From the NCBI RefSeq assembly GCF_030646255.1, contig NZ_JAUSNF010000016.1, forward strand, positions 1 through 34,868: a stretch of DNA of 34,868 nt. The letters are read 5' to 3'. Positions 23,041-25,312 of the stretch are shown one piece after another (position 1 is the stretch's first letter; each line of letters begins with the position of its first letter). The notes beneath the pieces were generated by a model that searched no databases, was not told the origin of the DNA, and was given only the letters and a program-made list of their open reading frames with translations. The position numbers and the translations under genes were made by a program. This stretch comes from Candidatus Burarchaeum sp. GTDB lineage: Archaea; Micrarchaeota; Micrarchaeia; Burarchaeales; Burarchaeaceae.

Positions 23041-24054
23041 ATGGTTGAACTTATTGAACACATTTCCGCTGAGACTGACCCGAGCCATGGCAAGGTGCCG
23101 CGCGACCGCACCATGGCTGAGCGCATGCAGCTCGGCATAATTCCCATCAACAAGCCGTGCGGCCCGAGCAGCCACGAGGTCGGCGCCTGGGTGCAGCGCC
23201 TCACGGGTGCAATAAAGGCAGGGCACTCGGGAACGCTCGACCCCCAGGTGAGCGGCGTCCTCCCGGTTGCGCTCGACGATGCGACAAAGGCACTCACATT
23301 CATGCTCAAGAGCGACAAGGAGTATGTCGGCATAATGCGCTTCCACCGCGCAGTTGACGCGGCCCGCGTGAGGCGGCTGTTTGCTGAGCACGTGGGAAAA
23401 ATAAAACAGCTCCCGCCCGTGCGCTCCGCCGTCAAGCGGGTGCAGCGCGAGAGGGAAATATATGTGCTTGAGCTGCTCGAGCTCGACGGCCGCGACGCTC
23501 TCTTCCACGTCTCGTGCGAGGCGGGCACCTACATTAGAAAGTTATGCCACGACTTGGGAAGGAGCGCGGGCACGGGCGCGAACATGGTCGAGCTCAGGCG
23601 CACGCGCGCCGCGGGCTTCAGCGAGGTGCAGTGCTGCACGCTTCAGCAGCTGAGCGACGCGCTCTGGCTTTGGAAGGAGCGGGGCGACGAGAGCGAGCTG
23701 CGCAAGTATGTCCTGCAGCCTGAGCAGGTTCTGAAGTTCAAGCGCATCATCATAGTCGACGGCGCCATCGAGGCGCTGTGCGCGGGCGCGCAGCTTGCGC
23801 TTCCCGGCGTTGCGAAATTCGAGAAGGGCATTGCGAGGAACGAGACGGTAATGCTTCTGTCGCTCAAGGGCGAGATGGTAGCCATAGGCGCTGCGCTGAT
23901 GAGCGAGAAGGAGATGAAGGAGGGCACGAAGGGGCTGGCAGTCAAAACCGTGCGCGTCGTAATGCGGGCCGGCACATATCCCCGGCTATGGAAGAAGCAC
24001 GAAGGCAGTGTGCACGACGGCGAAGAAGGGCGAACGTCAGAGAAAGACGGATAA
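23041..24054 (+). CDS. cbf5: tRNA/rRNA pseudouridine synthase Cbf5 (TruB family)
   Basis: 337 residues. Cbf5 is the catalytic subunit of H/ACA ribonucleoproteins and can make pseudouridine 55 in the tRNA T loop. The catalytic aspartate is in GHSGTLDPQVSG (Asp67). IPINKPCGPSSHEV, then QLPPVRSAVKRVQREREIY and CEAGTYIRKLCHDLG complete the TruB fold. The C-terminal PUA domain runs from about residue 235 (KRIIIVDGAIEALCAGAQLA, then KGEMVAIGAA). The gene stands just upstream of tRNA-Ser, whose T loop is split by an intron next to the very base Cbf5 would modify. The last 15 residues form a charged tail. Confidence 0.96.
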   Translation: MVELIEHISAETDPSHGKVPRDRTMAERMQLGIIPINKPCGPSSHEVGAWVQRLTGAIKAGHSGTLDPQVSGVLPVALDDATKALTFMLKSDKEYVGIMRFHRAVDAARVRRLFAEHVGKIKQLPPVRSAVKRVQREREIYVLELLELDGRDALFHVSCEAGTYIRKLCHDLGRSAGTGANMVELRRTRAAGFSEVQCCTLQQLSDALWLWKERGDESELRKYVLQPEQVLKFKRIIIVDGAIEALCAGAQLALPGVAKFEKGIARNETVMLLSLKGEMVAIGAALMSEKEMKEGTKGLAVKTVRVVMRAGTYPRLWKKHEGSVHDGEEGRTSEKDG

Positions 24055-24231: not shown

Positions 24232-24291
24232 AACTCGTGCAATAATGTACCCTGCCGGGGTGGCGGAACCTGGTATCGCGCATGCCTGGAA

Positions 24292-24343
24292 AGAAACTTT
24301 TTCAGAAAAGTTTCATGTAATGACATTAGATGTTGTGCCGGAT
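24292..24343 (+). other. tRNA-Ser intron 1, canonical 37/38 position (52 bases)
   Basis: The exon bases CTGG (32-35) pair with intron CCGG (24338-24341, one G-U) as the central 4-base-pair helix. A three-base bulge AAA (24290-24292) and a three-base bulge ATA (24342-24344) flank it. Cutting each after its second base gives the standard archaeal splice. The intron body holds a 9-base-pair hairpin GAAACTTTT-TCAG-AAAAGTTTC (24293-24314). Confidence 0.88.
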
Positions 24344-24372
24344 AGCATGTGCCCGCAAGGGCTTATGGGTTC

Positions 24373-24467
24373 GGGCCCTTCTTTCTTTTCAAAAAAGAAA
24401 GAAGCCCCGGGGTAAGAAAGAAAACAAGTTTCCCGGGATTTGAAAACAAGAAAGGAAGGCCGCTCAA
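24373..24467 (+). other. tRNA-Ser intron 2, T-loop position 56/57 (95 bases)
   Basis: A bulge-helix-bulge can be drawn: central helix GGGT (24367-24370) with GCTC (24462-24465, two G-U or U-G pairs), bulge TCG (24371-24373) and bulge AAA (24466-24468), and inner helix GGCC (24374-24377) with GGCC (24458-24461). Cutting after the second base of each bulge restores a consensus T loop TTCAAAT. Inside are a 12-base-pair hairpin (24378-24404, loop CAA) and CCCGGGG (24406-24412) able to pair with TCCCGGG (24431-24437). Its two ends resemble the element at 27453-27490. Confidence 0.85.
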
Positions 24468-24484
24468 AAATCCCATCCCCGGCG

Positions 24485-24520: not shown

Positions 24521-25312
24521 ATGATGAAAAACGAAGAGTCCAAGACGCACGGGAAGGAGCAACACAAGGAGCATGGCAAGGAACAGCCCAAGCCAGCTGA
24601 AGGCGGAAGCCAGCAGGCCAAATCCTCGCAGAAGCACGAGGGAAAGAAGCCTGACCAGCGGCCAACCGCGCCGGCGAAGCCGATGAAGGATTACGGCCAG
24701 GATTTCCGCGGTGTAGTCCGCCTTGCGGGCAAGGATTTGAAGGGTGAAGTGCCCGTGCGCCGCGCGCTCTCGCGCGTGAAGGGGATTGGCGACAGGCTAG
24801 GCCCGGTTCTGAGCGAGATAGCCACCCAGCAGATGAAGATTGCAAATGATACTGTCATCGGCCTGCTTACTGAAGAGCAGATGAAACAGCTTGAGGACAT
24901 TCTTTCGCACCCTGAAAAGTACGGCGTGCCAAACTACCTGCTCAACCGGCAGAAGGATCCTGAGACTGGCGTGGACCGGCACATCATCAGCACTGACGTT
25001 AATTTCCTCATGAGGCAGGACATCGAGCTTGACAAGACGCTGAACACTTGGCGTGGTTACAGGCACCTCTATGGCCAGAAAGTGAGGGGCCAGCACTCGC
25101 GCACGAGTGGAAGGACGGGCATGACCGTCGGCGTCCAGCGAAAGACCCTCATGGCGGCCAAGGAGGCCGCAGTGGCGGCAGAGGCCAAGCCAAAGGGCGG
25201 CAAGATTGCGGGCGCGGAAGAGAAGGCGGCAGCCTCGCCGGCAGAGGCAGGCAAGCCCGGGGCCAAGACCGATGCAAAGCCGGCCGCGGCGAAGAAGGAA
25301 GAGAAGAAGTGA
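24521..25312 (+). CDS. rps13: Small-subunit ribosomal protein uS13 with extensions at both ends
   Basis: 263 residues against the usual 150 or so of archaeal uS13. The core (about 60-210) is clear: FRGVVRLAGKDLKGEVPV, ALSRVKGIGDRLG, the archaeal DPETGVDRHIISTDVNFLMRQ segment, and the basic end GQKVRGQHSRTSGRTGMTVG. The front 57 residues are Lys/His/Gln/Glu-rich and the last 50 or so are Ala/Lys/Pro-rich, both without structure motifs. The start may be ATG 24521 or 24524; GAGGT at 24513-24517 favours the second slightly. It opens the uS13-uS4-uS11-rpoD group. Confidence 0.95.
   Translation: MMKNEESKTHGKEQHKEHGKEQPKPAEGGSQQAKSSQKHEGKKPDQRPTAPAKPMKDYGQDFRGVVRLAGKDLKGEVPVRRALSRVKGIGDRLGPVLSEIATQQMKIANDTVIGLLTEEQMKQLEDILSHPEKYGVPNYLLNRQKDPETGVDRHIISTDVNFLMRQDIELDKTLNTWRGYRHLYGQKVRGQHSRTSGRTGMTVGVQRKTLMAAKEAAVAAEAKPKGGKIAGAEEKAAASPAEAGKPGAKTDAKPAAAKKEEKK

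Follow-up and report, generated by a model that had tools for sequence, protein, structure and literature searches.

A tRNA-Ser(GGA) gene with a second, T-loop intron in Candidatus Burarchaeum sp. and related T-loop introns in Micrarchaeia

The window analyzed here is a 34,868-nt stretch of Candidatus Burarchaeum sp. DNA (contig NZ_JAUSNF010000016.1). We refer to the genome it comes from as G000; its relatives, all of class Micrarchaeia, are coded from G001 onward, with G001 belonging to the same genus. A tRNA-Ser(GGA) gene at 24254-24484 is divided by two introns into three exons (Table 1). An earlier annotation of the window, made from the sequence without database searches (the first-pass annotation), had placed cbf5 just upstream, and profile matches confirmed this neighbor.

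Table 1. Features of the tRNA-Ser(GGA) locus in the window and two further serine tRNA genes of genome G000
Feature	Position	Strand	Description and evidence
cbf5, pseudouridine synthase subunit of H/ACA RNP	23041..24054	+	NF003280 E 4e-118, TIGR00425 E 7e-114; upstream neighbor, also in relatives
tRNA-Ser(GGA) exon 1	24254..24291	+	acceptor 5' strand, D arm, anticodon stem 5' strand, CTGGAA; ARAGORN on joined exons
Intron 1, canonical 37/38, 52 nt	24292..24343	+	sequence; pairs checked
Intron 1 BHB	central helix 24286-24289 with 24338-24341; bulges 24290-24292 and 24342-24344		helix CTGG with CCGG; bulges AA^A and AT^A
Exon 2	24344..24372	+	anticodon stem 3' strand, long variable arm, T stem 5' strand ATGGG, TTC 54-56
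Intron 2, T loop 56/57, 95 nt	24373..24467	+	unique cut in BHB scan; covarying consensus arms; relative in tRNA-Ser(CGA)
Intron 2 BHB helices	central 24367-24370 with 24462-24465; inner 24374-24377 with 24458-24461		central GGGT with GCTC; inner GGCC with GGCC
Intron 2 bulges	24371-24373 and 24466-24468		TC^G and AA^A
Exon 3	24468..24484	+	AAAT 57-60, T stem 3' strand CCCAT, acceptor 3' strand CCCCGGC, discriminator G
rps13, ribosomal protein S13	24521..25312	+	PF00416 E 9e-30; syntenic downstream neighbor
tRNA-Ser(CGA)	G000:C47:1538-1681 (L071)	-	T-loop intron 56/57
tRNA-Ser(TGA)	G000:C57:25801 (L287)	+	T-loop intron 58/59

The removal of both introns had been proposed to yield a complete serine cloverleaf. 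We found the proposed boundaries exact to the base: the joined exons (84 nt) were recognized by ARAGORN as tRNA-Ser(gga), and the unspliced gene had no match in either ARAGORN or Rfam RF00005. ARAGORN isotypes are unreliable for two-intron genes (with intron 1 kept, this gene was called Pro), and isotype counts given below are rough. The proposed geometry, a four-base-pair central helix between two three-base bulges with the cut site past the second base of the bulge, was present at both introns once the pairs were checked for each.

Intron 2 is cut out between C56 and A57, and the exon strand of its central helix is the GGGT of positions 51-54. Of the cuts compatible with a normal T loop, 56/57 alone produced a paired central helix. 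The sole other cut leaving a canonical loop, 57/58, was rejected, with three of the four central bases mismatched and one paired. As a control for chance, a much looser scan for a T arm, a BHB and an acceptor stem returned a single match in 0.75 Mb of shuffled DNA.

The central helix of intron 2 (GGGT with GCTC) is made of two Watson-Crick and two G-U pairs, with one of the G-U pairs located at a covarying pair. The strict hBHBh' form was not found at this intron: the exon-side outer helix looks to be essentially absent, and by inspection only U50-A58 could pair. This helix is missing because the central helix takes T-stem bases 51-53. Judged from its pairing, the motif is a BHB of the relaxed rather than the strict form, and with two G-U central pairs and no exon-side outer helix it would be, on paper, a weak substrate. 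The archaeal BHB intron family is accepted to include relaxed forms (PMC6379350).

When the full cloverleaf was imposed together with both BHBs (the imposed elements being the acceptor stem, the anticodon stem and the two BHBs), the precursor folded at -82.4 kcal/mol, 2.9 above the unconstrained minimum. An alternative with the T stem formed around the intron folded at -81.8 kcal/mol, approximately equal to the fold with both BHBs. Since GGG 51-53 is used by both the BHB central helix and the T stem, and cannot serve the two structures at once, the pairing suggests that the T arm matures only after excision of intron 2, as the first-pass annotation had argued.

For comparison with relatives we used 15 genomes of the order with a readable tRNA-Ser(GGA) in the slot linked to cbf5. 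The first 38 bases of the orthologous genes were 90-95% identical, and the exons of tRNA-Ser(GGA) were conserved with all arms intact. The T-loop intron was located at 56/57 in G000, G002, G003 and G008, and at 59/60 in G001, G006 and G007, where the central helix is TTCA with TGAA or TGAG. In the remaining 8 of the 15 genomes the T-loop intron was absent and the plain T loop TTCAAAT was observed, which is the loop that removal of intron 2 had been said to restore. Such intron-less orthologs are an independent record of the spliced tRNA-Ser(GGA) sequence.

The G002 ortholog was 81% similar to the G000 gene over its whole length. In G001 the first 135 bases were 93% identical to those of G000, yet the T-loop intron was the one at 59/60. 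Therefore, within the genus, the T-loop intron was either replaced, or one was lost and another gained.

To see how far the 56/57 introns extend, we searched the 13-base junction pattern GCYCAA^AAATCYC in 295 Micrarchaeia genomes, and the matches were then required to have both T and acceptor stems. The pattern was matched in 71 of the 295 genomes. The junction was found within 57 tRNA genes with shared BHB arms, distributed over 28 genomes and 11 families; since the pattern covers one subclass, only tRNAs with G51, R52 and G53, these 57 genes are a lower bound for T-loop introns. Intron lengths varied from 19 to about 150 nt, with one 232-nt assignment being doubtful. Another 63 of the 120 distinct matches had no tRNA context and were set aside; those inspected were coding or other sequence. 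In the control with shuffled upstream sequence, the tRNA-context test was passed by 6 of 585. Outside the class, the junction pattern was matched 12 times in 35 archaeal genomes (e.g. Aenigmatarchaeota, Pacearchaeota, Nanoarchaeota), and no match had tRNA context. The 95-nt T-loop intron that the first-pass annotation had called unusual is a real 56/57 intron, but that word is somewhat too strong, as in Micrarchaeia introns at 56/57, 19 to about 150 nt long, are common across isotypes.

Covariation was assessed on 52 distinct junctions, with two rows having a mispicked T stem left out (alignment A3). In the central and inner BHB helices 95.9% of the cells were paired, compared to 78.8% in shuffles; cells changed on both sides numbered 77 versus 21 in shuffles, and the covariation score was 0.52 versus 0.16. 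In every control with a slid partner, pairing was below 50%. The T-loop BHB helices are, then, backed by strong compensatory pairing. The exon base 52 and its intron partner occurred as GGGT:GCCC in 52 cases, GAGT:GCTC in 3, GGGT:GCTC in 2 and GAGT:GCCC in none. By its junction sequence, the T-loop intron of tRNA-Ser(GGA) is assigned to this Micrarchaeia set with the fixed 3' arm GCYCAA^.

Several further features of the introns were observed. In one genome of family f7 (G059; L195, L199-L203), seven or more tRNA genes, covering several isotypes, were interrupted at 56/57, and the short hairpin differed from one intron to the next. Beside CTTTCTTT hairpins, introns of several families (L035, L074, L082, L086, L204-L206) had purine runs of the AAAGAAAGAAA type; the T-loop introns of family f6 instead were 19 nt long and capped by a GAAA tetraloop. 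An intron-like array of CTTTCTTT/AAAGAAAG hairpins was also seen in G008 (C16:4797-4843, L077) between protein-coding frames, with no obvious tRNA.

All three serine tRNA genes recovered in G000 (GGA, CGA, TGA) have T-loop introns. The mature sequences of tRNA-Ser(CGA) and tRNA-Ser(TGA) are identical at 84 of 85 positions, differing in the anticodon only, yet their T-loop introns are unrelated and located at different sites (56/57 versus 58/59). Conversely, between tRNA-Ser(GGA) and tRNA-Ser(CGA) the T-loop introns are 88% identical (84/95), compared to 75% for the exons (63/84). About 50 bases of an apparent tRNA-Trp(CCA) (G000:C56:26461-26510; L072, about 930-1220) are 89% identical to the T-loop intron of tRNA-Ser(GGA). 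They belong to a partly related intron near 30/31, a position read by inspection, and at least one further intron seems to be present in that gene. Related introns across the isotypes of G000 thus comprise one clear pair, Ser(GGA) and Ser(CGA), and a partial copy in the apparent tRNA-Trp. We also observed that introns in Leu, Ser and Trp genes of G008 had similar hairpins.

Because the introns of the GGA and CGA genes are more alike than their exons, and a gene nearly identical to the latter holds an unrelated intron, the comparison points to intron copying between tRNA genes as the simplest reading. The copying may have proceeded through reverse splicing and recombination, or through local gene conversion. 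The likeness could instead come from common descent of the two genes with no copying at all, as both are serine tRNAs with related exons; we consider this rather unlikely, given that descent would have to account for introns diverging less than exons, for the unrelated intron at another T-loop site of tRNA-Ser(TGA), and for the partly related intron at a different position in the apparent tRNA-Trp.

Under the copying reading, T-loop introns with a fixed 3' arm would spread, or be exchanged, between tRNA genes. A wider version can be put forward only tentatively, as a possibility that we regard as the less likely one: a mobile family throughout Micrarchaeia, in which the GCYCAA^ arm pairs with the T-arm GRGU that many tRNAs have, the intron's own splice arm picks the next target, a separate exon tetramer goes with each of the sites 56/57, 58/59 and 59/60, and one intron may displace another even within a genus.

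The type of splicing endonuclease, a check suggested by the first-pass annotation, was clear. G000 has one match for a tRNA-intron endonuclease (386 aa, at G000:C13), a one-chain alphaN-alpha-betaC protein that aligned end to end with the ARMAN-2 epsilon-2 EndA (4fz2, E 2.4e-136). The catalytic residues Y236/H251/K282 and the ASL residues Y160/K161, as read from the alignment, are all kept. By sequence, then, the G000 enzyme is classed as epsilon-2 (ARMAN-type). In published assays, changing the ASL Tyr-Lys pair to alanine abolished detectable cleavage (PMC12397907), and epsilon-2 enzymes accept relaxed motifs (PMC4033280, PMC6379350). An intron 2 lacking the outer helix fits such an enzyme because of this tolerance.

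We infer the following course of cleavage and ligation. The precursor would form two BHBs: one spanning the anticodon loop (37/38), the other, of relaxed form, in the T loop (56/57), where the T-arm GGGU of positions 51-54 would pair with GCUC near the 3' end of intron 2. The epsilon-2 endonuclease, its ARMAN-specific loop permitting relaxed substrates, would cut each bulge past its second base, after which the three exons would be sealed by a tRNA ligase. The T stem (49-53/61-65) would form only once the introns are out.

Pus10 is the usual archaeal enzyme for Psi54/55. Among the genomes of the order, we detected Pus10 in G003, G007, G008, G009 and G013; it was not detected in G000-G002, G004-G006, G010-G012, G014 and G015, which include G000 and two genomes of the same family. 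Cbf5, which the first-pass annotation had named for the modification of position 55, may thus make Psi55 in genomes where Pus10 is missing.

tRNA-Ser(GGA) is the expected reader of UCU and UCC. An intact copy elsewhere in the genome, together with a lack of spliced reads from this locus, was the observation that, according to the first-pass annotation, would make the locus a broken copy; we found no second tRNA-Ser(GGA) in the 1.21-Mb assembly, which is 84% complete. Splicing of this gene would thus be required for growth, unless an intact copy is hidden in the missing 16% of the genome. We predict with high confidence that this is a working tRNA-Ser(GGA) gene, present in one copy and carrying two BHB introns, the T-loop one being of the Micrarchaeia set, and that it is processed by EndA cleavage and ligation.

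The incompleteness of the assembly and the weak central helix of intron 2 leave some room for a gene inactivated by the 95-nt insert, with an intact tRNA-Ser(GGA) active elsewhere. We consider this very improbable: beyond the missing second copy, the exons are conserved with every arm intact, the same intron type sits at the orthologous locus of G002, G003 and G008, and T-loop BHB introns occur in all three tRNA-Ser genes found. That the insert is a transposable element, a MITE-like hairpin or an assembly error, as its internal purine/pyrimidine hairpins (CTTTCTTTTC...GAAAGAAAG, common to some other introns) and the similar G008 stretch outside any obvious tRNA might hint, is hardly credible given that the insert falls exactly at the cut in every case and the exon and intron arms covary, that related copies inside G000 sit in tRNA genes, that intron-less orthologs join perfectly, and that the insert recurs in many independent assemblies.

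The two-intron gene at 24254-24484 was missed by ARAGORN and Rfam, and because T-loop introns hide genes from general finders, Micrarchaeia genomes can look short of tRNAs. In G000 (84% complete), Rfam found 20 tRNAs above the cut-off, and RF00005 with E up to 10 added four weak matches; noncanonical introns probably conceal many of its tRNA genes. At L005:1219-1396 (G000:C28), just upstream of a tRNA-Asp gene, lies a gene resembling tRNA-Tyr (GTA anticodon, read by inspection); it has an insert in the anticodon loop and, at 58/59, a T-loop intron whose central helix is GTTC/GAAC.

The three serine genes, two with the same exons and different introns and two with different exons and nearly the same intron, would provide a clean record of intron movement outside Thermoproteales. 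The conserved junction yields a rule, open to testing, on the tRNAs that could take up a T-loop intron, and the introns themselves would be natural relaxed substrates for the epsilon-2 endonuclease.

Introns at noncanonical tRNA positions were rightly described by the first-pass annotation as known in some archaea. The sites 53/54, 56/57 and 59/60 are among the known noncanonical archaeal BHB intron sites, including those in Thermoproteales (PMC4090602, citing Sugahara 2008), and multiple introns per tRNA, the ARMAN epsilon-2 enzymes and Thermoproteales intron transposition have been published as well. In the mostly open-access papers searched, we found no report on Micrarchaeia that describes T-loop introns throughout the class or an exchange of introns. 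Relative to these papers, the novelty lies in how widely the Micrarchaeia T-loop introns occur and in the rules of their sequences; their kind was already known.

With Thermoproteales and other archaea (PMC4090602) the present gene shares the 56/57 site, the BHB geometry, a second intron beside the one at 37/38 and the occurrence of multiple introns per gene. It differs in its host, a micrarchaeon (DPANN), and in the enzyme, which is of the epsilon-2 type and not the crenarchaeal (alpha-beta)2 type, and in Micrarchaeia one junction, GCYCAA^AAATCYC, recurs across the class. Similarly to Thermoproteales intron transposition, near-identical introns are found in different tRNAs and intron likeness does not track exon likeness; here, however, the case is in Micrarchaeia, and G000 has a single clear pair besides the partial copy in the apparent tRNA-Trp. 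Atabeyarchaeia and Freyarchaeia (PMC11291895) also have most tRNAs interrupted, many of them at noncanonical sites and often by more than one intron per gene, but they are Asgard archaea, and the main text of that report gives no T-loop detail. The multi-intron tRNAs of ARMAN-1 and ARMAN-2 (PMC4033280, PMC6379350, PMC12397907) share with the present case the endonuclease type with its ARMAN-specific loop, the relaxed substrates and the phylum.
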